A DNA stretch of 42,479 nt from Pigoraptor vietnamica (lineage: Eukaryota; Opisthokonta; Filasterea). The notes under the pieces are model-generated. The model worked only from the letters and a program-made list of their open reading frames with translations, ran no database searches and had not been told where the DNA came from. The DNA is taken from NCBI GenBank assembly GCA_943704525.1, contig CALSCQ010000322.1:1-42479 (forward strand), written 5' to 3'. Shown here one piece after another: positions 754 through 41,677 of the stretch. Within the stretch, counting starts at the first letter, position 1, and the number at the start of each line of letters is the position of its first letter. Position numbers and translations under genes: made by a program.

Positions 754-5264
<4,511 letters not shown>

Positions 5265-8228: not shown

Positions 8229-11200
8229 CACACGCGCACGCGCACACTCACACACACACACACACGCAACGCACACATGTCGAAGCCCTCACCCTGTCCC
8301 CTTTGTGCTCCTGAAGAATCCATAGCGCACGTTCGTTCTTGCGCGCTCTGTATTTATCCACCCACGCTCGCTTGCCTCGCCTGCAGCCGTCCTTCCTTGC
8401 CACCCTCCTGAACGAGGCAAAGGAAGGCGCCACGGAAGCAACGGGCTCGCTCGGCCGCACTGCCGCGCACTTTGCAGCCGCGTGCGTCGGCGATCGCCCC
8501 CTTCGCCACCTTGTGGGCGCCGGGTGCAACATTGGCGCACCGGACAAGGCTGGCGTCACGCCGCTCCACATGTGCGCGAGGTGTGTCTATCCGGTCACGT
8601 GGTTCGCTGACATCCTTGCTCCCGCTTTCATTATTGTCAGTTTACATGGTCGGTTTTTTTCAGCGGAATTTTGTCGTGCCTTGCTCAAACGCTGTGCCGC
8701 CAATCGAACGCGCGTGCCACGGCTGCATTGATCGTTTGACGTGCCCCTTTGACACGCTCTTGCGCCGCGGTCCTCACACACGTGCAGGTTTGGCCGCACG
8801 CACAACGTGGCTGTCTTCGCCGAATCGTCGGGCGGTTCGCTCGAGGGATCGAAGCCAGACAAAAAGGGCCGTACGGCGGTGCAGTACGCGTCGCACTTTG
8901 GCCATCCGCACACCCTTGCCGCCCTCATCGCACACGGCGCCCCTCTCGACGTCGCCGACAAGGACGGGAAGATAACGCCGCTCATGGAGGCGGCGCGCAG
9001 CGGACATCGCGCGTGCGCCGAGATTCTCCTCGCCGCGGGTGCGGACGCTGAGGCGACGGACAAGGCCGGGCGCACGCCCCTTCACCACGCCGCCAAGAAC
9101 GGCGCCGCGCGAATTATCGCGCTCCTCCTCTCGACGGGGTGCAATCCGGACTGTGCGGACTCGTCCGGAAACACGCCGCTCCACTATGCCGCTGCCTATG
9201 GGTGGGATGAGTGCGTGCGCATACTGATCCACGGCGGAGGCGCCAACGCGAGCGCCCTCAACGCGTGGAAGGTTGGCCCGCTGTTCATCGCCATGATCAA
9301 GGGACACATGCGCTGCGCCGAGACACTCATGTCGCACCCGGGCGTCGACGTCAACCAACGCGACGCCGAGGGACAGACGATGCTCCACCACGTGCTCTCG
9401 TCGCCCTCGGACGGCACGCGTCGGCAGGTGGAGTTTCTGCTCGCGCGCGGCGCATCGGTTGCCATTGCGGACGCGAAGGGGTTCACGGCGCTGCATGCGC
9501 ACTTTTCACGCGACAAGGAACGCGACAGGACGCTGGCCAACTACGACTACGCAGCGGCGGAAAAGGCGGCGGCGGAAAAGGCGGCGGCGGAAAAGGCGGT
9601 GCCCGAGGAGGCGAGGGAAGGTGTGCCGCAAGTTGCGGCTGAACCCGCGGTGAACACCGACGTCGACATGGCGAGTGCGAGCGACGCTGAGAACAGCGCG
9701 GGGGAGGAGGACTCTGAGGCGGGCGATAGCGACGGCAATGAAGAGGATGAAGGCGCCGACGACAGCGATGGCAGCGACGCGCCCGAGGCGATGGACGCGG
9801 CACCCCTAGCACCCGCGGCACTCCCGGCACCTGACAATGACGTCATCGCGATTGCGCACATGCTCCTCAAGGGTGGCGGTGCCGACCCCTGCGCCGCAGA
9901 CGGCGAGGGGAACACGGCCGTGTCGCTGTCGGTTAGACAGGGATCCATGCGCCTCTTCCGCGTGTTGGCAGACGCCGGCGTGCTCGATGCCGCGTGCAGT
10001 GTGCGCACGTCGAACGGCCGCAACCTGCTGCACACCATCCTCGGGGGTGATGCGGCGAGTCACGTGCACCCGCAGCACTGGCTGAACATTCTGTACGCGG
10101 GGGTTGCCAAGGCGACGCTGTGCCGAATGGCGCGGGAAGTGGACGAGAAGGGGTTTACGCCACTCCACTTGTTGTGCCTGTCGTACACCGGCTTCTCGGA
10201 TCATACGATCCTCACGCTGGTGTCGTCGTTCTGCGCTGCGTGCAGTCCGGACATGAACGCTGCCGTCACGCTGGACCCCTCGCACGCTGGCCGCACCGCC
10301 CTTCACTTTGTGGCCCACACGCGGCCCGACTTGGTCGAGGAGCTTGTTAAGCTGGGGTGTTCGCCCTCCGTTGCTGACGCGCGGGGCAACTACCCCCTGC
10401 ACTCGCTTCTGTCGTTCCCTTCGGGCCGTCGTTCGTTGGTCGTGACCATTGCCAGCCTGAAGTGCCTCCTGCACGGACCCGCTGTCAACGCGCGCAACAA
10501 CAAGGGCGAGACGCCCCTCCTTCTCGCTGTGCGGTCGTGCGATTGGCGTGTTGTTGGCGCGCTTCTCGATGCGGGCGCCGACGTCAACGTCGTGGACAAG
10601 GACAACCGCACACGTGAGTCTCCCAAAACATCAGAGTCGGTCTATCCGCTTGTGTCTTGTTCGGGATCGAAAACGTCCGCATTCGTTCAGTTCGTGGTGA
10701 CGCCTCGTCGCCTGTTCTTCTCAACTAACGCGCCTTGCTGACCTCCCTCGCAGCTCTCGCGATCGTGGCGGCGGAGACGGGCGACAACACCATCACCGTC
10801 GCCTCGGTCCTTCTCATGGCAGGCGCTAATCCCGACGCGCCTGCGGGCGTACCGGGTGCCCCCGTCCCTCTCGTTGCCGCCGCGTCCAAAGGGCTCGCCG
10901 TCGTCGTGCGCATGCTCGCGGACGCCGGCGCGGACCTCAACGCGCAGACGACGGCGCCGCCGGAGAAGAGCAACGGGGAAGCGGGAGCTGCGGCGCCCGT
11001 GCAGGTGCAGGTTTTTGGCTACCACCACCACCAGCAGCAGTCCGAGACCGTCCTCGTCGCCGGCACGACCGCCTTGCACGCCCTTGTCGCCCGCATGTCC
11101 AAGTCGCCGGACAACATTGAGCTGGCAGCGCTCGTGCGCGTTCTCGTCGAGCGCGGCGCACGCACGGACCTGCGCGACTCGAAGGGGCGAACGCTGCTGC

Positions 11201-14200
11201 ACCTGTGCTTTCCGGAGAACACCTTCAGCGACGAGTACCTGCGCCAGCAGCAGCAGGCCATGCAGTATCACCACTACGGCTACGGTCACCAGGCACAGAA
11301 GGACCAGGACCCCATCGCCGTTCTCAGCGACGTGTGCCCTTTGCCGGGGATTGACGTGGACGCTCGCGACGCAGAGGGTCGCACGCCCCTCCACTTTGCG
11401 TCGGCATCGAACGCCATCATATCGAGCATCTACCTCCTGCAGCGGGGCGCTGACGTGAACGCACGTGATGCGAAGGGGAACGGCCCCCTCCAGGTCGCGA
11501 TTGCGCGCAAGCACAAGGAGATGGCGTCCGTGCTGGCGAGCAGGGGCGCAGACCCTCGTGCGCCGTACGTGGAAGCGTCTGGTGCGTCGGTGACGACGTT
11601 TCGCGCGGCCGCTTCGGCACAGATGAAGGCGCTGTGCTATCTGATGGTGGGCGCTGGGATGGACGTTGTCACAGCGTGCGAAGACTCGCTCGCGCTCGGT
11701 GACGCGGATGGCATGCGCGCGATCATGGCGAAAGCAGACGACGCCCAGCTGCGGGGAACGACGGCGCGGGGACGTAACCTGTACCACGCGTGCGCCCAGT
11801 ACCCCGCCTTGTTTCCGATCGACCCTTTGAGAGGCTGGGGTTTTGAAATTCCGTCGCAACGCTTACACGGCAAGTCCTCCGCTGCCGCGAGCTCGGGCGG
11901 CTCTGGATCGAGCGAGGCCGTCGTGGACGCTTCGAACCCCTTTGCAAGGGTGCGCCAAATCCGACAGGGAGGGGGTCTTCCGGCACCCCCTTTCACGGCG
12001 CTGACCAGTGCGTCGCAGTACGCTGTTGAGAAGGACCTGCTCATGCTCATTTACGCGCGCGGTGTGGATGCCTGCGCCGTCGACGCGGACGGCGACACTC
12101 CGCTGCACATTGCCTGCGAGAAGGCGAACGTTGTCGTGGTGTGGCACCTCCTCCAGTGCAACGCAAGCGTCTCGGCGCGTGACAGGGATGGGCGTACCCC
12201 CCTTGGTCGGATTCCAGTCGGGTCCACCAATGAGAACGTGCAGCGCACACTCGCAGAGGTCATCTCGAGCGGCGCCTGCGTCACCGACGCGTTGCCGAAA
12301 GGCAGTGTCCCCCTGTTTTATACGGCCGTTCTCGGTGGAAATCAGAACGTCGCCTGGAGCCTCGTTCGCAAGGGTGCCGACGCGAACGAACCGCACCCGA
12401 ACACGGGGCGCACGGCACTGTCGGAGGCGCTGAGGACGTCGTCGCTCTCGGCAATCGGTGTTTGCGTGTTCATTGCGAAGATGGCGGCGCCTCTGCGTGT
12501 GGACATTCCGGACAACGAGGGACGTAACGCCCTCCATTACGCCGTGGGTGTGAGCCAGTCGTCGTTTGCGCGCCACGAGAAGACCGCAAAGGTGCTCAAG
12601 ATGCTTGCGCCGAAGGTCGCCACCGGTTTCGAGAACGCCTTGCGCATGCGAGATGCCGTCGGAATGACGCCCGTCGACTACGCTCGGCGCCTGCGTGACC
12701 CCGCCGCAATCGAAGCGCTGCGGGAGATGGACGCGAGTGCGGTCGATGAAGCGATGGCACGGCCGCTCGACCCCTTGCCGCCCCTTCCACCCTTCCCTAC
12801 GCTCGACGCACCCGCCATCCCCGTGAGCCCGCAGGCGGACGCACAAGCCATGCGCGAGAAGCACGCCGCGGCGGTGGATGCCGAGTGGGAGAAGAGCCGG
12901 CGCGAGGGGAAGGTCACGTATGCCGTGGACGAGGAGGGCAACTTCCCCGCCACCGCCGTCGTGCACACGAACGCGGCGGGCGTTGCGTTTGACGCGCTGC
13001 TGCACCGCGCGGACGCTTCGTACGGCGTCTACGGCAAGAACGACTTTTATCGGATGCAGGTCGTGCACATTCCGACGCAGGACCTCTTCCTCCTGTGGAC
13101 GCGCTGGGGCCGCGTGGGCGAGACCGGCATGCACCAGAAGACGCCGTTCCCTTCCGCCGCGGAGGCAGAGACGGAGTTTGCAAAGATATTCCGCTCGAAG
13201 ACGGGCAACGCGTATGACGCGCCCGCGTTCGAACCCGTCCCCGGAAAGTACCGCCTTCAGTCAGTCGCGACGCGTCCGGACCCGGGCGACGCCCTCTGCC
13301 GCTTCGACCCCGCCGCCGGTGGGCTCCCCACACAGCTCGACGGTCGCATCGTTCGCCTCCTTCGGCTGGCCACCAACACGAAGCTGCTGAAGGGGGCGTT
13401 CGAGCGTAAGCGGATCGGCGACGGGATGCTCGGCCGCGTGCCAGACTCTGCTGTCGTGGACGCTGTTGCCGCGCTCGCGGACATCGCGGCGTGCAACGAC
13501 GAGATAGCGGCAGCAGACAAGGCGCTGGACGTGGCGCGCCTCCGCGCTGCGAAGGAGCGCATGCCGCCGCTGCTGAACCGGTTCTACGAGCTCGTGCCGC
13601 ACACGTCGCAGGGGGAAATGACGATTTCCGACATCAACGACAAGATACGCATGCTCGTTGAGATTGGGGACCTCCAGGTGGCCGCGCGGCTGCACCTCGG
13701 CGCCCAGCTGCGACAGGCGGAGATGAACCCCGCGGAGGTACTGCGGTGTTTTCTTTCTGTCACTGCGTCTTCGTGTTTCGGCACTGTTGTATGTGTCAGC
13801 GCGCGTAGGTAGGCACGTGTGCTCTGTGGGGTCATGTGGGTGTGCGTGTGCGTGCGTGCATTTTCTCACATACTGTTGAGTAATTGTCTCACGCCTTCCC
13901 CCATTGTCCTGTTCAGTACGTCTTCCGTGGTCTCGGAGTCGACATTCGCCCTGTGGAGGACGGCACCGACGAGTTCGCGGTGATTCAGAAGTGGGTTGCA
14001 GTCAATGGAGTGCGCCAAGGCAGTGGGCACCGTGCGTGAAGAGGCGTCCTCGTGTGTGATTGTTCTGACACGTTTTGTATTACGAAACCCCTGACTGTAG
14101 ATAACCTGAGCGCACGTTCGCAGGTACTTCACCCTGTCCAAGGAACACGACTCGCTTTCGATCGACACCGTCTTCGCTGTGCGTCGTCCCGGCGAAGCGG

Positions 14201-17609: not shown

Positions 17610-18284
17610 ATAGAGTGAAACGACAGCGGCGCATATTTCGAATGGTGTCAGTGTGCGTGGCTGCGCATGAGTGCTCACGGCAGTGTGCGTGGCTGCAGCC
17701 GGTGCATGAGTGCTCAGTCAGCAGTGCAGTGCATCCGGAGTGCTCGCGGGGTGCAGTGAATGTGCTCAGTGCCCAGTGCGTGGCCGGCTGCAGTGCCATG
17801 ATGAGTCGGCTCAGTGTGCGTGCCTGCAGCCGGTGCATGAGCCAGTGCTCAGCTGCACTGTCGGCTGATCAGTGAGTGCTCAGTGTCAGTGTGTGTTTCA
17901 ATTGCGAATGGCGTGTCTGCGTGGCTGTGTGATTGTGCAGTCCGGCCGTGTGCCAGTGTATCCTAGCGCTGGGACCCGCGCAAGCAGTCATCTCGCCTGA
18001 CTCGCTTCGTTTCCATTAAATTAGGCAGAGCCGGCCGGGAAGTAGTGGCACGAGCAGTTCATCCGGGGTGAAAGCAGGTATCACGTGACCGATTCCCTGG
18101 GGAATTTCTCTTGGGCGTGCCCTTTTTGCACCGCGCCACTTCTTCGCAAACGAGAAAGAAAAAACGCCGCACTGCAGAAGCATGCACGCTCAATCCGCGC
18201 GTACATTGCATGGCTGAAAAGGTTAGCAGTTTCTGGAGGGGCCGCGGTCGGTGACAGTCTCTGTCTCCGAGCCGAGGGCTTGAG
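17610..18284. other. Intergenic region upstream of the epimerase fusion
   Basis: The first 290 bases hold degenerate repeats (separate entry). The remainder, 17900-18284, should include the promoter of the fusion gene. I see no TATA box. Confidence 0.5.
17640..17900. repeat. Degenerate GTGCTCAGTG-type repeats
   Basis: Variants of CAGTGTGCGTGGCTGCAGCC followed by GGTGCATGAGTGCTCAG recur three times (near 17648, 17680 and 17810), with shorter GAGTGCTC/AGTGCTCAG pieces between them. The tract follows directly on the end of the Myb-like frame and has no coding frame of its own. Confidence 0.7.
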
Positions 18285-21200
18285 ATGCGGTACGTCGCTC
18301 TTTTTCTCTGCGCGGCCGCGCTCTGCGGCATTGCTGGTGTCGTGTGGGGCGCCCCCGCAATGGCCCCTCTCCCGCAGATGCAGCGCGACGCCGCCGCAGC
18401 CAAGGCCTCCGCGGTCATTCTCGTGACGGGCGCGGCGGGTTTTATTGGCATGCACACAGCCATTTCGCTCTCGCGCGACCCACGCGTGCGCCTAATCGGC
18501 GTGGACAATTTCAACTCGCGCTCGGACGTCGACCTGTTGTTGAAGCAAGAGCGCGCACTGCAGCTGCGGGCGAATAATGTGACGATTTTCAACAGCGACG
18601 TGTGCGACCTCGTCCTCATGGAGATGCTCTTCAGGCGCTTCCAGTTCACGCACGTCGTGCATCTCGCCGCGATGGCGGGTGTTCGGAATTCGCTCCATAA
18701 CCCCGTCGCTTTCGTGCACGATAACGTGCGCTGCTTTTCGCGGCTGCTGGACATGGTCCGCCGAGCGCCCGAGATGTACGGCGGCGAGATGCCCAAGGTC
18801 GTCTTTGCGTCGACGTCGTCCGTGTATGGGATGTCCAACGTGGGTGGCTGGTTAATTTGACCTGTGCGTGTGTAGGCGTGTGTAGGAAGGCGTGTGTGCG
18901 TGCGTGAGCGTGTGTGTCGCCGGGTTACTCTGCTAGAATGTGTCGTGTTGCGCGGCGCGCCAATTATTGAAACTGGCTTGTGTCACGCCCAATTCAATTA
19001 GCATCTCGTCCGTACAAGTCTTTCTTTGACCGCCCAATGCTTCAACCGCGCAGAAGCAGCAAAATTCGGTTCGCGACCGAACGGACGGCCAAACTAGCAT
19101 CTATGCGTCGACGAAGAAGACGGACGAGCTGCTCGCGCACGCGTACCACGTCCGCTACGGCATGAAGCTCGTGGCGCTTCGGTTCTTCACCGTGTACGGC
19201 CCTTGGAACCGCCACGACATGGCCATGTACCTCTTCACCGACGCGATATGGAAGGGCGAGGAAATCGACGTCTTCGACAGAGGAAACCTTCGGAGGGACT
19301 TTACGTACGTCGCGGACGTTGTCCGCGGGGTGTCGACGGCGGTAACGCGCGATATTCCCGGCGGCTTTCGCATCTTCAACATCGGCAACTCGAGCCCGCA
19401 CACCGTGTCGTATCTCATCGGTGAAATTGAGCGACAGCTCGGGCAGAAGGCGCGCAGGCGGTTCATGCCGTTTCAGAAGGGCGACGTGGTCAAGACGGCG
19501 GCGGATTTGTCCGAGTCTGTGTCGGGGCTGGGATTCGAACCCCTGACCCCCCTGAGGGACGGCGTGCGGCAGTTTGCCGACTGGTACCGCACCTTTGCGG
19601 CGCACGTCAAATCGGACAACGCGAGCTCGATCGGGCGGCGGGGGACGTTCTACTCGAAGGCGCTCTTGAAGCAGCGGCGCGCCATGCACTACGCGGGGAT
19701 GGAAATGGTCACGGCGTTCAAAAACAACGCGACGTCGTGGATGCTGCAGAGCGACTACGCCCGGTGGAAGGCGGACGTCGCTATCCCCGGTCGCTTTGAG
19801 CTGCCTGATCGGTCACCGCGGTCGTTTCTCTTTTTCAAGGTTTGTCCTCGGTTGAGCTGCACGTATCACCCTTTGCGGGAGGTTCCGGTGGTCACACACT
19901 AACACGAGTGTTCCTTTTGTGTTTGTTCGTCTCTCTGTTGTCGACGGCCCTCGTCCGGACAGGGGAAAGATTCGATGGGCGGCGATGTGATACAGAGCAT
20001 GAAGTATGCGCGCAACCCCGAGAAGCTACAGGAAATGTGCGACGAGATTCCCATGTGCGTGGCGTTCAACACGAACGGACTCCTCAAGATCACCGTACAC
20101 AGCTCGGCAAAGTGGCGCAGCTTCAACACTACGAGCAACGAGGGGCTCTACGTCGCGGGTGGGTCGAAGTGCGCGGTGGGCCGCCTGTGCTGAGAACGGC
20201 GGCTGTTCCGTGGCGTTCACTTGCTTGTCCGGTTCACTCGTCCCATCGCGACGAAGGCGTTACGTAGTTGTTTGCACGCACGTTGTCTTTTCTGAGGCTG
20301 ACGTTTCGCGCCCCGTCAGACATCGATCCCTGCAAGCGTGACATCCACACGTGCGCCGCGAATGCCCGCTGCATGCACACGGGTCCGTCCAAGTTCAAGT
20401 GTTACTGCAACCCCGGTTACGTCGGCGACGGTATGCAGTGCCATCCCATGTTTGACACGGACGGCCTCCCGAAAGATCCGGGAGAGTTGGACCGCATCCG
20501 CCCGTACCTCAAGCCCGCGCCACCCCCGCGCACGTGAGTGTTGTCACACGCCACGACTTCCTTCTGCCGGCCTTATGCAGCCGGCGTGTGTTGTCGTCAA
20601 GTGTATGTCATGTTTCACCCTTAGTTTGCGGGAAATGCCAACGATGATTTACCCTTTCCTCTTGTTTGGAACACCCGGTAGGTACACATTCCACCCGTAC
20701 GTCGACCCTCCCGGCTACGATCTCATGTCCGCGGTCGGCCACGAGCGCAACATTCCGCAGCTGAAGGCGCTCTGCGACAGCACGCCCGACTGCGGTGCGT
20801 TTAACACGAACGGGATCCTGAAGACCCTCGTCGGCGCCCCGCAGACCGAGTGGAAGCAGTGGACGGGCAACAGCTCAGAGGGATTTTTCATTGCCCGTAA
20901 GTGGTTGCCCCGCAGCGCTTCACCACTTGTTTGTCTTGCCAATGCTTTGACCTGATGTGGTGCAGTGGTTGCGAATTGCACGTTTATGTTTGTTTGTCTG
21001 CCCGCAGACGTCGACCACTGTGCGGAGGGTACCCACGACTGCCACCACCGCGCCACGTGCACGTACTTGGGCCAAGGACTCTTTGAGTGCGCCTGCCTCC
21101 CCGGGTTTGTGGGTAACGGGCGCCACTGCCGGTCGAGTCTGGACCCCGTGGAAAGCCATTCGGCGCCGGCAGACGACCCAGACGCGCCCCCGGTGCTTAA

Positions 21201-22610
21201 TTACCTGACGCGCATTGACGACAAGCTGATCGACACGGAGTACGACATGAACGCGAGTAAGCTACGCCCGCCGTGGCTCGTGAACGTGCAGGTGGCGATG
21301 GAGAAGCGCCCGCGACTCGTCGACGATTACGCGTACGCGCAACAGCTCGCGCGCGTGACGCGGGACACGAAGCTCGCTGAGACGAGGCGAGGGACCAAGG
21401 CCGAGGAGCATCCGCCGGCCGACACCGAAGGGGCGGCGGACGCTGCAGCCCAACCGAAGCAGCTGCCGCACGGGTCGCGCGGCAAGGGCGGGAAGTGGAA
21501 GAAGGGGCAGGTGGTGGAGATATTGCTTGCGGGCGACCCGGAACACTACAAGGGACTGCTCGCTGTGATCGAGTCTGTGCGGCGCAGCACGCCCGACCCC
21601 TCGCGCGTGCGGTTCCACGTGGCACTCGCGCAGGACGGCCTGAAGAACACGATCCCTTTTGAGCGCATGCTCGACTGTTACGGCGTGTCGCGCGTGGACG
21701 AAGAGGGCCGCGATCTCATCGAGATTCGCCACTTCAACGCCCGGCAACTCGCCAAGCACGCGCTCACGGTGCACGGGGCAAAGGCGGTCTTTGGGAATCT
21801 CGCGAGCGACGCGAACCTCGCCCGCTTCTATTTTGCGACGCTCTTTCCCTTCGTTTCCAAGGCGATTTACTTTGACGCCGACGTCGTTGTCCGCGGCGAC
21901 GTCGTCGACCTTTGGAACGTCGTCCGCGGAATGTCGACTGTATTTGCCGCCGTCAAGCGCACCTCGCCGACGTACGGATCGCTCTTTGGATCCAGCGCGG
22001 TAAGGGGCTGGCCACTGCATATTGCCGGTGTAGGCTGTTCCGTTTTGCACTTAGGCAGAGGGGACAGAAGTATTTGTGTGACTGGGCCGCTCACATTGCC
22101 TTACCTGGCCGACAACAGGACAAGGTGCGCAAGATGCTGCACGATAACTTCGGGCGCTCTTTTTCCGACGGCGACGCGACGTTCAACGCCGGCGTCTTTG
22201 CAATCGACCTCTCCAAGTGGCAGGCCGCTAACATGACGGCGGAGGCGGAGTTTTGGATCGAAGCGAACGCGCGGATGAAGCTGTGGCCGTTTGGGTCGCA
22301 GCCCGTCCTCCTGCTATCGATGGCGGGACGGTGGTCGGAGCTCCCGCGCGAGTGGAACTTTGACGGTCTCGGGTGGCGGCGAAAGGACGACGTGAACCGC
22401 GAGCTCATGGCGAAGGCGAAGCTGTTCCACTTCAGCGGCCGACAGAAGCCGTGGGCTGCGTCGAACGATTTTGCGGACATGTGGCGCGAATATGCGGGGC
22501 TTCGGGAGTGCTCCACTCACGGCCGGTGTCACTCCGTTCTCGGGTGCATCTGCGACGAGGGCTATGAGGGCGTCGCGTGCGGGTCGCGGGTCGACGCCAA
22601 CGCCAACTGA
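18285..22610 (+). CDS. UDP-sugar epimerase / PAN-EGF / GT8 glycosyltransferase fusion
   Basis: Seven exons: 18285-18839, 19054-19839, 19963-20158, 20320-20533, 20682-20896, 21008-21999, 22119-22610 (about 1149 aa). A hydrophobic N-terminus (residues 1-23) suggests a signal peptide or type II anchor. Residues 44-350 are a short-chain epimerase: GAAGFIG (49-55) binds NAD, with SSVYG and the Y202-x3-K206 catalytic pair (YASTK). It is closest in style to UDP-glucuronate 4-epimerases (RFFTVYGPW, DFTYVADVV). Then come two PAN-like modules (CVAFNTNGLLK, CGAFNTNGILK), each followed by a Cys-rich EGF-like module (DIDPC..., HVDHC...). Then a GT8 domain: FDADVVVRGD (DxD, 945-947) and HFSGRQKPW (H1090), and a last EGF-like knot. 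GT8 includes plant galacturonosyltransferases, so epimerase and transferase could use the same sugar, UDP-GalA. The donor and acceptor are not proven. It is convergent with the cyclase gene. Confidence 0.88.
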
Positions 22611-22918: not shown

Positions 22919-25900
22919 CTACTTGAAGTCATGCTTGCTGAGACCGACGGCCATGTCGAGCGACGGCAGCTGCTTCCCGTACCCCTTTTTCCCCGTGAGA
23001 AAAAACGTGCGCATGAGACCCTTTCCCTTGACAAACGAGACGCCCCGCTCCTCCAGGTGGTACTGCCCGGTCGCCTCGAGCATTTGCGCCGCCGCATTGC
23101 TGAGGTGAATGCGGAGGGCTGCGCGGACGGGCGGCCCAAAAGTTAATAAATAAATAATAAATTAAATAGCGTAGGCCTAAATTATATTAACAAACAGTCA
23201 GGTGACAGCATTATCCATCCAACGGAAAAAGTCTCTCGGGCTCGCACAAGCACCAAGCACTGCGGAGACATCCGACCAAAATTTGATGAAACAAATAATA
23301 AATGCCTCTGTCAATCACAACGGAAAAAGTCAGGCCCTCGCAAGTACGCGTCTGTTGCACGAACTACCCACCGAGACCCCCGGTCTGCATTCTGCTGGCC
23401 GTGTTGATTGTGTCGCCGAAGACGGAGTAGTTGGGCATTTTGACGCCCACCACACCCGCAACGCACGGCCCTGCGGGGGAGGTCAAATGAGGAGGGCAAT
23501 CCTGTGTGTGTGTGGGTGCGCGCGTGCGCGCGTGCGTGCGTGTGCGTGTGCGTGTGCGTGTGTGTGTGTGTGTGTATCGTAAGAGGGTATCCATCTCATG
23601 AATGCCCGCGTTTTCAGAGTCTGTCAGCACCAGCATGTTGAGCAGACGCACCAGAGTGTATGCCAATACGAAGCTGCAGCTGGCACGCGTCGTCGTGAGG
23701 CACAGTCAGGCCGTTGACGGCCGCGAGAAAGTCCAGCGCGAGGTCGGCAATTTCGGTGGCATGCCTGTTTTCGTTGCGCACGGGAAGGCCTGACACGACA
23801 ATCACAATGTCGCCAATGGTATTGACCTGGAGGGAGGGGCAGAATTGGGTCGGGGTCATTAATTTCTCTGGTTTGATGCATAAAAAAAAAAATTCTAAGC
23901 GTGCTGGCTCAAACTCTTGCTCAACGAACTGACGGCTAAGTGAATCGATGTAACGTGGAAGAAGATAACCATAATTGACAGCGGTCATTAACTGTGGAAA
24001 GGCATGACGCCACCGACTGCGGAAAAACAAATCGGAAAAAAGGGCGTACCTTGTACACGTCCCTTCCCTCGATCACGGCATCGGCCACGCTGTAAAACGA
24101 ATTGAGGAAATCGACAATCTGCGCGCACCACAGACACAAAGTGTGAGTTCGCGCGAGAAAGAGAAGAACAAAAACCATGTCAACACAACAGCAAAAACGA
24201 CCATTGCAAGTATTATCCAATCCGTTCCTGACGACCACCACACGCACCTCGAACGGCGACGAGCGCGAAATAACGGCCGAGAAACCGACAATGTCGGAAA
24301 ACATGACGGTGACATTCTCATAATACTCGGGCTTGACCAGGCGACCCAGCTTGAGGTCCTGCGCCACGCTCTTCGGCATGAGGCGGTACAGCAGTTCCTC
24401 CGATCGCTCCTTCTCCCGCTTCAGCTGCCGCGACCGATCGCGCACGACCGAGCGCAGGTTGTGCGCGTGGCGCTCCAGCAAACGAATCATGTTGTCGACG
24501 AGCGAGAAGGGCGTCGGGTACTGCTTCAGGAGCTCTTCCGAGACGATCTCAAACGACTGGGGGCGTTCGAGGGGATTCTCGGCCCAGCATGCCTTCATGA
24601 ACGCGATATAGGCGGAGGGCGCGGGCTCGTCGTTGAGCTCTTCCTCCGAGGGAATGTTCGGCCGAAGTCCCTCCATCGCCACCTGCGCATTGGCGCCGTT
24701 AGCACCGAGGCGCTTGCACGAAAAGAGGATCCGAAAAGATTAGAAGAAAAACATATAATAAGGGAAGAAACGCAATGACAAAAGAAACGTAATGGCGCAT
24801 GCTCCCATGAATTGCGCACACGCACACGGACTCCACACAACGACATCGCTTCGAGAATCACGTACTCACCTTCAGCACGATCCCCGTCGGCATCATCGCT
24901 GTGATGTCGGCGTACGGCTGTTCGCGCGTAAGCAGCTCAAACATGATGATCCCGAACGAGTAGATGTCGCCGGCCTTTGTGCCGTGCGAGTAGTGCCCCG
25001 GCGTCGGCTGCTTATCGATCAATTCGGGCGCCGTCCAGAACATCCCCGAGTAGTAGCGGTACTCTGTGAGCTGTTCCATGTCGTCGTGCGAGCGGAAGGA
25101 CGCGAGGCCAAAGTCTGCGGCAGAACGAGGGGCAGTTAGGAATGCTGTAGCAATCACGGATGCTTGAACGAGAGAGGGAAGTAACGAGAGCGTGCGCCGA
25201 TGGCGTGGACTCAATGCTGAGGGCCGGGGATTAGAAGGCAGCGACGAGCAATAGCCACACCCACCGGTGACCTTTGTGACCCATCGCGAGTCAATCACGC
25301 AGTTCATGCTCGTGAGCCGCCCGTGGGCGCCGATGGGTGAGTTGTGGAGGTGCGCCATGCCCGCCGCAATGTCCCGCGCAATCGAGTACTTGAATTCCCA
25401 GTCCAAATGCACCTCGGTGTCGGCGAGGACATCCGCGAGCGACCCACGCGACGCGTATTCCGTGAGAATGCACACGTTGGGCGGCTCAACGCACGCGCCG
25501 ATAAAGTCGACGAGGTTCGTGTGGCGCGTCTTGCGCATGAGTCGCATTTCGCGGCGTAGCACAGTCGTCAGTTGGACCTTGGCCTTCGGGATCCGCTTGA
25601 TGGCCACGCGCATGCCGTGGCTGAGGGAAAGGGTTCGAAGGGGTGAATGCGGTCGGAGCGACTACTGTGGTCGGCTTTCATCGTGCGCGGCATGCAGGAG
25701 CATGAACTGAGTGCGCGAATGTACGGGCGAGACAAGCACGCACGCTATCACGGTCGGCGACATGGAGCCGCAGTACTCACTAGGTGCCCGTCAGTATGAA
25801 GATCTGGTCCAGGTCGCCCTTGGAATGGCTGCTTGCGCGGCTATCCAGCAAATTCGAGTGGCTGCTGCGGAGCGAATTGCGGCTCACGGACGACGGCACT

Positions 25901-36299: not shown

Positions 36300-39180
36300 A
36301 TGGGCGCGCGTCTGTGCTTACTGGCATGTGTTATCGCCCTCCTCTCTCTTTGCGCTCTGCATGGTGCGAGCGGGAGGCGCATCAACATCGGCATGCTCCG
36401 ATCCACTAGCCAGGGAAGCGCGGAACGGAACGACCACTTGCGGGTGCGTGTCAGTGTGCGCGGATGAATAAGTGAAGTGTGCGCGTGAGTGAGTTGTTAT
36501 TCCGGTCCATTTGTGCGCGTGAGTTGAGTATGTTCCCGACCGATTTCTCTGTGCGTTGTCCTGCTGAACCACACTGAGCGTGGGCACCGCCATTGGCCAC
36601 TGTGCGCTACATGCGTGCATGTGCCAAATATGGCCCTAACTGAACGCCGCCACCCGCCAACACAGCTGTGTGTCGAGCACATCAACAACAAAACAGGTGC
36701 GTAACCGCGCATGCCCCTTTGCTCATCCCCCCTCGCCCATTCCACTTGACGCACAAGCATGCGTGCACTCGCGGTGGTTGTCCGTGCCCGCTTTGACACT
36801 GGCTTGCTGCTTAACGCGATTCCAGATGGCTACTGGGATGACCTGCTCCCGAATGTGACGCTGGACCTCGTCGTGAACACGACGGGCAGCTGCGTGAGCC
36901 GCATCGCGCTGAATGCGGCCGCGTGGCAGGTGCTGACGGCGAACGTGTTTGGCGTCATTGGGTCGACGTGCTCGGGGGACTCGGAGGTGGTCTCGCAGCT
37001 TCTGAGTCTGGACACGTTCAGGAGGCCGCAGATATCGTACAGCGCCACCAGCCCAAAGCTGTCGGACAAGTCGCTGGTGGGTAGTTTGCACGGCGCCACA
37101 ACTGACTGACGAACGTGTAAACGTGTACTGCGCGCCCGTCCCTGCACACTGGCTGATGGCCCCGCTTTTGTTCGCAGTTTCCAACGTTTATGCGGACGGT
37201 CGTTTCGGACGATTTCCAAGGGCGCGCTCTCGCGCAGCTGTGCGCCTACCACGGGCTGCGGCGAGTGGGTGTGCTGAAGAGCGACTCTGCGTACGGGCAG
37301 GGCATCGCGCTCGTGTTCTCGCGGGAGGCGGACCGGCTGGGCATCCATGTTGTGGCCGAGGAGACGTTTGCGGAGATCAACTCGCAGGACGTGCGGCAGC
37401 AGCTGCGCGTGCTGCAAAAATCGAACGTGCGCGTGATTGTGCTCTTCGCGGAGGAGCAGGACGCCTACAACATCTTCTCGCAGGCCATTCCCATGGGACT
37501 CACCGGGCCGAGGTTCCAGTGGATTGCGTCGGACGGTGCGTGCAGCTCCGTCGTCTGCTGCGTTTGAATCGCCGTGTGTCTGTCAATGCCGCTGTTTCCA
37601 TATTTGGCGCACTCCCTCGTCTCGTCGGTCTTAAGATTGTCACGTAGTCGCGCGATTTGCGCGTGCGTTGCTTGAAAGTGCCGCGCGATTGTGCGTCTGC
37701 GAGCTGCGATGTTCGCGTGGCCGTGACACGTTTCGCCCGCATAGCCGCCGTTTCGGACGGGTCGTACCAGACGTCCGTCGGGGGGGTGCCCACGGTCAAC
37801 GAGGCCGTCCGTAACGCCATGTTCGGCATGCTGGGCGTGCAGCCCGCGAGCGGCTACGGGCCAAAGTACAGCGCCTACGTCCAGCTGTGGCAGTCGCTGC
37901 CAAGCTCGTATTTCGACGCGGATGGGGACAGGTCGACCGTGGACTCGTATGCGCCCGGTACGCCGCAGTGTGCACCCCTGTTGGGATTTGTACCTGTGCA
38001 CGTGCACGCACGTGGTCCTGTGCTCGGGCAACTCGTGTGCTTTCTCACTTACTTTGCCCCCCTTCCCTCCAAACACACCGCACACACACACACACACACA
38101 CAAACATACGAAAATTGCAGCCACGTACGATGCGTGCGTGACGTTTGCCATGGGACTTAATGCGACGTATGCGCGCGGCTTCCTCGAGACGGACGCCGAC
38201 GAGCTGCTCGCGAGCCTCAAGAACGTGTCATTTGTCGGCGTGAGCGGCGAGATCTCGTTTGACGCGAACGGCGACCGCGTGAGCGGCCTCTACAGCATTT
38301 ACAACATGAATCGCACCATGGGGTCGCCCATTGGCGCGTGGGATGCGCACACGGGCGTCTCGTACCAGAGGGCCCCGGTGTTCTCGAACGGGCGCGCCGT
38401 GCCGCCCATCGACGGAAGCTGTCCGGACGACTGCCTCGGGGAGGGCGTGTGCGACGTGAACACGGGCCTGTGCGGGTGCAACACGGGACGAAGCGGCGCG
38501 AACTGCTCGGTCGTCGCGCCTGAGGTGCTCACGGAGCAGGCCACCGGCAGCGACATCCCGTGCGGGCACATTGCGCACTATCGCGCAGAGGCACCATCCC
38601 TCGGCGCCGTCCTCACGTTTCGCCTCAAGAGCGGGCGCGACGTGCGCACGGGGGCATTTGACAGCGTGCTGTACGTTGGCCGCGCCGCCCCAATCGTCAC
38701 CGTCAACGCGTCGGACCCGGCGTTTGCGCCTCGCCTCGACCCCTCGAACGGCGACCTCCAGCTCTACTCGGTGGCAATCGCGTCTGCCGATGCCCTCGGC
38801 ACGTACTTTGTGGACGTTTACGGCACCGGGCGATCCTGCCCAGCGAGCTACCGATTGGAGTACACGGTGATGCTGCCCAGCGCCGGGTCGTCGAGTGAGT
38901 ACGTGCTGCCGCCGTGTGCGCGTGTGTGTGTGAATGTGTGCGTGCTTGTGTGCGCGTATGTGCGTGTGTGCATGTGTGTGTATGTGTGTGTATACGTGTG
39001 TGCTTGCGTGTGTGTGTATGCGTGTGTGCTTGCGTGTGTGTGTATGCGTGTGTGCGTGCGTGTGTGTATACGTGTGTGCTTGCGTGTGTGTGTATGCGTG
39101 TGTGCGTGCGTGTGTGTGTATGCGTGTGTGCGTGTGTGCGTATGTGCGTGTGTGCGTGTGTGGGTGGGTGTGTTTGTGTG

Positions 39181-39254
<74 letters not shown>

Positions 39255-41677
39255 CGTCCGTGAGGACGCTGATTTTAGCGTGGTCCTCTGCGCCAATTCC
39301 ACCCCTCGCTCAACTCGCACGTGCGCACACATGCAGGCAAGTCCCACGTCGCCGTGATCGTTGGGCCAATGGTCGGTGCGATTGGGGCGTGCGTCATTGG
39401 ATTTGGGACACTTTTCCTCGTTTACCGCCGCCGGCAGAGGGGTCTGCTGCGCCGCGTGCAGCGCTCCCTCATCAAGTCGTCCGAGATTGAACTCATGGGC
39501 GAGATTGCGGAGGTGGGCGCGCGCCGCGATTCAGACTTCGCACTCACGAGATCAATTGGTGACATCGCTTTCGTCCCCCCCCCCCCCTCCCCACGATCCG
39601 ATCCGTTTCTTATAGTTGCAGTTTTTTTTCCTTGCACACGCTGAACCGCCCGTCTTATCCTCTCTGCGCAGGGCGGGTTTGGCGTGGTGTATCGCGCGCG
39701 CTTCCGCGGCACCATCGTCGCCGTCAAAATGCTGAAGACCCCGACGAACGAGGCCGCGCGCAAGAGCCAGTCGATGGGCTCCGATCTGCGCGACACGCAG
39801 GTGAAGTCGGCGCAGCTCCGCACCCGCGCCGCGATCGAGCGCGCCCGCCAGTCGCTCATGGCGCCGAGTGTGGCGGCGACTCGGAAGAAGTCCGCGGCGC
39901 GCAAGCCTTCAAAGCAGCAGGGCGGGTGGTTCGACACGAGGGACCTCACGCTGCCGGGGGCGTCGATGGCCGAGGACCGCGACAACGTGCCTGCGACGGC
40001 GATGACGCAGGCGAAAAGCGCGGGGGACCTCGCGGGCGGGACGGAAGCGCAGGGAGGAGGGAAGACCAAGTCGATTCGGTGGCTTGCGACGGACGCGCCC
40101 GCGGCTGGGTCCGCAGATCAGACGTGGAAGGAGAACATGCGCATGTTCCTGGACGAAGTGGACATCATGTGGTGCGTGACCGGGCCGATGCTTGAGCGCC
40201 TGCCACGCGTTTGCGTGCGTGTGTGTATGCGCGTCACTCTCGAACACGTTTCCCGAGTTCTGATGTGCTCTGCGGCTGTTGTCACATTGCCTGAAATGAC
40301 GCGCGTGTCGTTAATGGCCCTTCCACCCGCTTCCCGCGCAGCAAACTTAGGCACCCGAATATCGTTTTGTTTATGGGCTACGTGGCGGACGACCCCTCCC
40401 GTCCAATGATTGTTCAAGAGGTACGCGCTGACCCTCGCACACACCCCCGTTTCCCCAGTGGTCGTTCAGAAGGGACTCGCTGCCAAAGGCACTGCGCGAC
40501 GCACACACTCCCCTGTGCAACGCACCGTTCTTCGCATGCGCGCGTTGCAGGCATTCCCTTGTGCTCTCGTGGATAGCGTTGGGCAGCTGCTGATGCAAAT
40601 TTATCGAATCGCAGTTTCTCAACGGCGGCAGCTTGTACGAGGGACTCTCGCAAAAGAAGCCGTGGTCGCTGAAGACGAGGTTGCAGATGGCCATGTGAGT
40701 GGCGGTCATGCGCACGTACACATGCACACACACGCACACATACACGTGCAGGCACATTCACATTTCATGCATCCTCATGCATGCAATTGATCGTCCGTAT
40801 ATCGCTGTCTCACCGCCGTCGCACTCGCAGCGATGCTTGCGCCGGAATGGAGTACCTCCACCTCAACACGCCGTGCATTCTGTGGGTACCCGAGTGGCGC
40901 CGTCGAGTGCTATTGCGCACAATGTGTTGTGTGTGTCGCCGGTGCTCACGCGCGCCCCTTGCTTCCGCGCAGCCACCGCGACCTCAAATCACCCAACGTG
41001 CTCTTGACCTCCTCACTTCAGGCGAAAGTGACGGACTTTGGGCTGAGCACCATGAAGTATGGCGACGATAGGAAGGACGACAAGGACCTCGTCGGCACCA
41101 TCGCCTACATTGCGCCAGAGTGCTTTTCTGGAGAGCCGTGCTCAACAGCCACCGGTGGGTTGGCGTGCACGCGTCAGCTGCCGGTCGCACTCGCGGCTGA
41201 CATTACCGGCGCGCAGATGTGTATGCGATGGGCATTGTGCTGTGGGAGTGCATCACTCGCGCCGACCCCTACGGCGAGGACTTCCAGTGCGGCGCCTTTA
41301 GCTCGGTCGACCAGATATTGTCGGCGGTGGTCGAGGGCGGTGGGTGTGGCGCATTCGCCAAAGTCCTCTTTACGCGGTGTTTGCGTCGCATGCCCAAGTG
41401 TTCACTTCTGGCTTATTATGTGCGGGTCGTGGCTGCAGACTACCGCCCGCCCATCCCCAGCGACGTGGATCCCGAGCTCGGCCGCATTGTGCGTGACTGC
41501 TGGTCGCGCCACGCGTCGGTGCGCCCGTCCTTCTCGACACTCCGCGAGTCGCTCACAGAAGTCGTGGGCAGGATGACGGACGACGACGCGAGCCCTCAGA
41601 AGAAGGCCGACGCAGACAGCGAATCGGTCTACGGCCCCCCGGGCGACGAGCCGGAGATGGACGTCCAGCCGCTCTAA
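36300..41677 (+). CDS. Receptor kinase: PBP1/ANF-type ectodomain, EGF, TM, TKL kinase
   Basis: Fourteen exons: 36300-36443, 36666-36696, 36826-37076, 37178-37535, 37745-37957, 38121-38894, 39337-39512, 39672-40171, 40342-40420, 40615-40694, 40831-40881, 40973-41154, 41217-41339, 41439-41677 (about 1066 aa). Order: signal peptide (1-25); ligand-binding domain of the PBP1/ANF-receptor fold ([50 protein letters not shown]); one EGF-like module (about 433-465); a beta-rich juxtamembrane domain; TM (about 595-620); kinase. The kinase has [16 protein letters not shown]668, HRDLKSPN (D889), DFG (907-909), GTIAYIAPE and RPSF, so it is catalytically complete. HRDLKSPN is typical of the tyrosine-kinase-like (RAF/MLK) group, so Ser/Thr activity is expected. 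A Lys/Ser/Ala-rich insert of about 140 residues separates K668 from the helix-C glutamate (E811). Confidence 0.92.
38915..39255. repeat. GT microsatellite with higher-order units in receptor-kinase intron 6
   Basis: It starts 20 nt after the donor at 38895. From about 38985 to 39130 a 24-26 bp unit (GTGTGTATGCGTGTGTGCTT and variants) repeats about five times. It then becomes pure (GT)n from about 39187 to 39250. Confidence 0.92.
39575..39587. repeat. C13 run in receptor-kinase intron 7
   Basis: Thirteen consecutive C lie in the sense strand of intron 39513-39671. Like the two runs in the cyclase gene, it is C in the sense orientation of an intron. Confidence 0.95.

Follow-up and report, generated by a model that had tools for sequence, protein, structure and literature searches.

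In plants, the epimerization of UDP-uronates and the transfer of sugars by family 8 glycosyltransferases (GT8) are carried out by separate proteins. Among the nucleotide-sugar enzyme families of Arabidopsis, two catalytic domains on one chain are found in RHM only, according to the accessible part of the source (PMC3220709), which also proposes a chlamydial source for the plant UDP-glucuronate 4-epimerases (GAE). In UGAepi, the carboxylate site is formed by Thr126, Ser127, Ser128 and Thr178, the base is Tyr149 and NAD is tightly bound, whereas decarboxylases have Glu in the place of Ser128 (PMC7984243); Arg185 of UGAepi holds UDP-GalA (PMC12338863). Of the GT8 enzymes, all members of the GAUT1 family carry the motifs DxD and HxxGxxKPW, with an expected role in binding Mn and the donor (PMC7533613); human GLT8D1 takes UDP-Gal as its donor with low efficiency (PMC10709319). 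Mimivirus R655 is described as a putative glycosyltransferase of collagen that is 23% identical to human GLT25D1 (PMC9546862).

The window analyzed here is the entire contig C121 (42,479 nucleotides) of the Pigoraptor vietnamica genome. At 18285-22610 of the window, a predicted gene appears to join a UDP-uronate-type epimerase and a GT8 glycosyltransferase in one polypeptide, as the original prediction claimed and as the rebuilt coding sequence bears out. The product is probably a single protein of the secretory pathway that combines a UDP-GlcA/UDP-GalA epimerase, a GT8 domain (most likely for GalA transfer) and a stem of module-EGF repeats. Like plant RHM, it has a sugar-nucleotide enzyme and a second catalytic domain on one chain (PMC3220709), but RHM joins two nucleotide-sugar steps, whereas the fusion would join a nucleotide-sugar step to a transfer. 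The N-terminal half shares with UGAepi and GAE the fold family (as judged by sequence), the NAD motif, the YxxxK pair, the Thr/Ser/Ser site and an equivalent of Arg185, but unlike them it continues at its C-terminus into modules and a GT8; frames in the best 80 bacterial and best 80 viral relatives are no longer than 475 and 377 amino acids. The C-terminal half shares with plant GAUT and animal GLT8D1 a nearly whole PF01501 domain, the DxD and the HxxGxxKPW, but differs from both in the addition of an epimerase and EGF repeats. The fusion thus seems to be a new arrangement of enzyme kinds that are already known. The original prediction knew of no described GAE-GT8 fusion, and none is described in the titles and abstract openings among the matches listed by a literature search; the same architecture may be present but unremarked in other protist genomes.

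Gene model and domain organization

When the gene model was rebuilt, the previously proposed phase-consistent frame of seven exons was reproduced, and the junctions 19839|19963 and 20896|21008 were recovered identically (Table 1). The predicted exons make up one frame of 3450 nucleotides including the stop codon, encoding 1149 amino acids. All six introns are of the GT-AG type and 111 to 214 bases long, and GC3 in the phase of the model is coding-like in all seven exons (0.815-0.861, versus 0.400-0.514 for GC2). Retention of intron 6 would shift the frame without introducing an in-frame stop codon, and the splice that removes this intron is crossed by the alignment to the GT8 profile. The stop codon within intron 2 lies in a sequence that we take to resemble a branch point. 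On the minus strand there are long frames at 18062-18982, 19045-19812 and 21265-22050; long antisense frames are frequent in high-GC coding DNA.

Table 1. Parts of the predicted epimerase-GT8 gene (window coordinates).
Feature	Coordinates	Strand	Content
Exon 1	18285..18839	+	Start codon; hydrophobic stretch at the N-terminus, residues 4-22; epimerase, NAD-binding half (TGAAGFIG, TSSVYG)
Exon 2	19054..19839	+	Catalytic half of epimerase (YASTKK, YGPWNRHDMA), linker, SFLFFK
Intron 2	19840..19962	+	123 bases; in-frame TAA at 19900-19902 within CTAAC
Exon 3	19963..20158	+	Remainder of module copy 1
Exon 4	20320..20533	+	EGF copy 1 (six cysteines), then linker
Exon 5	20682..20896	+	Module copy 2
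Exon 6	21008..21999	+	EGF copy 2 with six cysteines, then linker and first half of GT8 (DxD at residues 945-947)
Exon 7	22119..22610	+	Second half of GT8, HxxGxxKPW from residue 1090, EGF-like C-terminal tail, stop codon

The predicted protein consists of a hydrophobic N-terminus, the epimerase, two repeats of a module followed by an EGF domain, the GT8 domain and an EGF-like tail. In Pfam, the epimerase (PF01370) matches at residues 45-296 over the whole profile (1-240 of 240; E 2.9e-44) and includes TGAAGFIG at residue 48 and YASTKK at residue 202. Glyco_transf_8 (PF01501) matches at residues 827-1100 over positions 2-251 of 253 (E 1.9e-38; 132.9 bits, cut-off 24.3) and includes DAD at 945-947 and HFSGRQKPW at 1090, confirming the proposed GT8 domain with its DxD and HxxGxxKPW motifs. 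EGF_3 matches in two stretches (64.3 bits, cut-off 28.5), with six cysteines in each EGF copy, whereas the C-terminal tail has five cysteines and scores 15.4 with EGF_2, below the cut-off of 22.1.

The most hydrophobic stretch of 19 residues is 4-22 (mean 2.27), in agreement with the secretory-type N-terminus that had been expected; a second, weaker stretch (up to 1.74, residues 36-62) lies in the NAD-binding strand. Together with eight N-glycosylation sequons and the EGF cysteines in sixes, residues 4-22 fit a lumenal protein, and a lumenal location is predicted on these grounds. The hydrophobic N-terminus could be either a signal peptide or a membrane anchor; if it is a signal peptide, retention in the Golgi is left without an explanation.

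The GT8 domain and its sugar donor

Among solved structures, the GT8 domain is matched best by WbbM, 5gvv and LgtC (in the order WbbM, LgtC, 5gvv when the fusion alone was the query), and the name GAUT is absent from the PDB rows up to E 1. Within the genome, the domain is 32% identical to a GT8 pieced together on contig C406. The end motif HxxGxxKPW of the fusion is found in the bacterial WbbM as well, so it is not specific to GAUT. Because WbbM shares this motif and GLT8D1 uses UDP-Gal, the assignment of UDP-GalA as the donor stays provisional, a suggestion drawn from the nature of the fused partner.

Alternatively, the fusion may be real but its GT8 domain may use UDP-Gal, UDP-Glc, UDP-Xyl or UDP-GlcA, with the epimerase serving to remove UDP-GalA, to make UDP-GlcA from UDP-GalA or to supply other enzymes in the same compartment. 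Several donors are used across the members of GT8, UDP-Gal by GLT8D1 among them (PMC10709319), and the solved matches with no GAUT name would agree with a different donor; but the physical fusion of an epimerase to a transferase is explained most simply as donor supply, and the pair of motifs is common to the GAUT1 family (PMC7533613), even if the second of the pair is present in WbbM too. This alternative is regarded as rather doubtful.

The epimerase domain

The solved chains that best match the epimerase domain are 5u4q (E 8.7e-73), named by its depositors as a dTDP-glucose 4,6-dehydratase, and 6zl6 (E 1.4e-37), which we take to be the UDP-glucuronate 4-epimerase of Bacillus cereus (BcUGAepi). 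In 6zl6, R185, Y149 and T126-S128 are located as the literature on BcUGAepi states. The BcUGAepi residues for substrate binding and catalysis are kept in the fusion as T177, S178, S179, Y202, T231 and R238, and K206 is the Lys of YxxxK. In NCBIfam, dTDP-glucose 4,6-dehydratase and GalE head the 19 rows obtained, and no row reaches its curated cut-off: TIGR01181 (dTDP-glucose 4,6-dehydratase) scored 120.9 against 365.1 and TIGR01179 (GalE) scored 113.9 against 262.3, which supports neither identity. The reading of the domain as a uronate epimerase is well supported by the residues and less so by the library names.

Conservation in 76 or more of the best 80 bacterial relatives is seen at 93 alignment columns; the fusion has the common residue in 77 of these and differs in 16, including a Tyr-Tyr pair and both neighbours of R238. 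The Tyr-Tyr pair is present in all 80 of these relatives and in an unfused paralogue of the same genome, and it is absent from BcUGAepi. A tree was computed from 58 rows picked by their likeness to the query: 40 bacterial loci (the first of the 80), 15 viral loci out of 80, BcUGAepi, the paralogue and the fusion itself. BcUGAepi is the one row known to have been assayed; the clade of the fusion is not known to contain an assayed enzyme. In this clade, which has eight rows and a support of 99/97, the fusion is joined by the paralogue, by five Chlamydiota and by a bacterium of unassigned group, a placement that matches the chlamydial source proposed for the plant enzymes (PMC3220709). The exact place of the fusion in the tree is unsure because its branch is long (3.32 compared with a median of 0.58), BcUGAepi is placed far outside the clade and the rows were chosen by likeness. 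The kept BcUGAepi residues favor the uronate-type epimerase that was originally proposed, and the chlamydial grouping would agree with it.

A role of the epimerase domain as a mere scaffold, inactive or repurposed, for stabilizing or regulating the transferase is improbable. Such a role would agree with the long branch, with the 16 changes among 93 positions conserved in the family and with the presence of an unfused GAE elsewhere in the genome as a possible source of the activity, but the catalytic and carboxylate-binding residues have been kept, which is unexpected for so divergent a dead copy.

The module-EGF repeats and the unity of the gene

The module is approximately 71 residues long, contains two cysteines and is repeated along with its EGF domain. 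The two module-EGF copies are 36% identical over 113 residues (E 1e-29), and because introns 3 and 5 have the same place and phase in the two units, the unit was probably duplicated within the gene. These regions had been labelled PAN at first, a label that did not survive comparison with Pfam: no PAN row was returned for the whole protein up to E 0.1 or for either copy up to E 10, in a single-copy search in which most matches above 0.1 are dropped by the HMMER filters. Copy 1 matched one unrelated row (E 0.12) and copy 2 matched none, and the PAN/apple assignment was dropped. A structure of the module predicted from the two sequences had a mean pLDDT of 48.1 and was set aside.

When a profile of the two copies was compared with the PDB, it matched residues 262-308 of mimivirus R655 (9crz; E 1.6e-4), the sole other row up to E 10 having an E value of 1.9. 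In R655, as in the fusion, the module sits with a glycosyltransferase, but that of R655 is GLT25D1-like rather than GT8, and an epimerase is not mentioned in the accessible part of its description (PMC9546862). This points to a small module, unmatched in Pfam, that the fusion has in common with a mimivirus glycosyltransferase. Copy 2 as a query had at least two matches in the P. vietnamica genome, both within the fusion gene, and no relatives were found in virus sequences scanned with the module-EGF unit.

The six residues SFLFFK encoded at the end of exon 2 seem to be the opening of module copy 1. The epimerase and the apparent start of module copy 1 share exon 2, and EGF copy 2 and GT8 share exon 6, so a false join of two genes would have to fall within 19840-21007 and keep the frame. 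It is very improbable that two neighbours, a GAE-like epimerase gene that stops with the TAA at 19902 and an EGF-GT8 gene beginning in or before exon 3, were joined in this manner: retention of intron 2, the length of which is a multiple of three, would bring the stop codon into frame, and exon 3 carries in-frame Met codons, but the 3′ end of one gene and the promoter and 5′ end of the other would need to fit within 123 bases, the sequence from exon 3 onward would have EGF domains yet no signal sequence, intron 2 keeps its GT-AG and the frame, and the alignment of R655 to the module starts at the strand that the last codons of exon 2 encode. The two module copies also align across the end of exon 2, which is not decisive because the input was cut at SFLFFK and one of its six residues is identical. 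As far as can be judged from the DNA, 18285-22610 is one gene.

Proposed function

Genes of the UDP-glucose/GDP-mannose dehydrogenase family (PF03721) are present in the genome, with nine exon-wise matches, so UDP-GlcA can probably be made by P. vietnamica. UDP-GlcA would be synthesized in the cytosol and then carried into the lumen by a presumed transport step. There, the N-terminal domain of the fusion would use its own bound NAD to interconvert UDP-glucuronate and UDP-galacturonate; if NAD is bound as tightly as in UGAepi (PMC7984243), the epimerase needs no lumenal pool of NAD. The GT8 domain would move the sugar, most likely galacturonate, with retention onto a glycan or protein acceptor. 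The module-EGF repeats may form a disulfide-stabilized stem that tethers the two active sites to each other in the lumen, and this stem may contact the acceptor. What would be gained is a locally high concentration of UDP-GalA, where the equilibrium alone gives a mixture.

Activity of both domains and their coupling are predictions from sequence. We tentatively suggest that the protein is a self-supplying lumenal glycosyltransferase, in which UDP-GlcA is converted to UDP-GalA and passed to the chain's own GT8 site for the synthesis of a galacturonate glycan, in an organism with GAE genes that fall together with chlamydial ones in the tree. If both halves are active, an activated sugar would be made and used on one chain in the secretory lumen. 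Such a protein would offer a natural test of whether it matters that nucleotide sugars are physically coupled or channelled, would indicate a galacturonate glycan outside the land plants, and would be a ready-made enzyme for the transfer of GalA from UDP-GlcA.

Occurrence of the fusion and genome context

The novelty of the architecture held as far as it was followed, namely through the best bacterial and viral epimerase loci and the viral GT8 loci, with flanks of up to 4000 bases and often less. At E 1e-3, GT8 is unmatched in every one of the best 80 bacterial epimerase loci, where frames are at most 475 amino acids from stop to stop, and likewise in every one of the best 80 viral epimerase loci, where the longest frame is 377 amino acids. 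Conversely, no epimerase match at E 1e-3 was found in 52 viral GT8 loci (longest frame 474 amino acids), in 33 of which the fused GT8 re-found the transferase. Virus sequences scanned with the whole fusion protein yielded no relatives.

The P. vietnamica genome was searched in its assembled form of 32.5 million bases in 1395 contigs. No match to an 18S primer pattern, with up to two mismatches allowed, was found in it, and a profilin exon is closest in the PDB to chains that we take to be plant-type profilins (68 bits), followed by Acanthamoeba profilins, which is not decisive for affinity. Of its other epimerase and GT8 places, two were inspected in detail for a fusion: the unfused GAE paralogue on contig C1328, where the other parts of the fusion are unmatched in the surrounding 9001 bases, and an unfused GT8 on contig C406, where they are unmatched in the surrounding 9501 bases (tblastn, E 0.01 in both cases). 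In tblastn at E 0.01, the fusion did not match the GT8 loci on contigs C933 and C229. A locus on contig C629 has EGF repeats in common with the fusion and is otherwise a weak match (28.6%). The window also contains pieces of a receptor guanylate cyclase and kinase, an RCC1-kinase and ankyrin-WGR proteins, which mark it as eukaryotic.

Unfused relatives and a possible accessory module

The P. vietnamica genome also encodes an unfused UDP-glucuronate 4-epimerase (GAE) on contig C1328, which is 45% identical to the epimerase domain of the fusion gene and possesses the Tyr-Tyr pair (kept in 80 of 80 bacterial epimerase relatives compared) that is absent from the fused copy. An unfused GT8 gene is found on contig C406, and the C-terminal stretch of its product presumably resembles animal GLT8D proteins.

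The module of about 71 residues that occurs twice between the epimerase and GT8 domains of the fusion gene has no Pfam match; it is similar to residues 262-308 of the mimivirus glycosyltransferase R655 (PDB 9crz, E 1.6e-4), and may be an uncatalogued accessory module of glycosyltransferases.

Locations of unfused genes, modules and neighbouring features
Feature	Location	Strand
Unfused GT8 gene	C406, about 3513-4598	
Unfused GAE gene	C1328, about 5237-3656	minus
Module of the fusion gene, two copies	window 19963-20157 and 20683-20895	
Guanylate cyclase and kinase pieces, near the fusion gene	window 23939-25661	minus
ANF-receptor frame with kinase piece downstream, near the fusion gene	window 37745-41573	plus
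Long ankyrin frames	window 8753-13809	

Other loci

Elsewhere in the genome, a full Epimerase match (C1045:1815-2597) lies inside a 659-aa open frame, longer than a single epimerase domain requires. Four contigs (C1263 in two places, C161, C1150 and C353) carry regions that match the UDP-glucose/GDP-mannose dehydrogenase family, which suggests more than one such gene. In the window, the second ankyrin frame is followed by WGR and PARP regulatory matches, the latter slightly below the cut-off.
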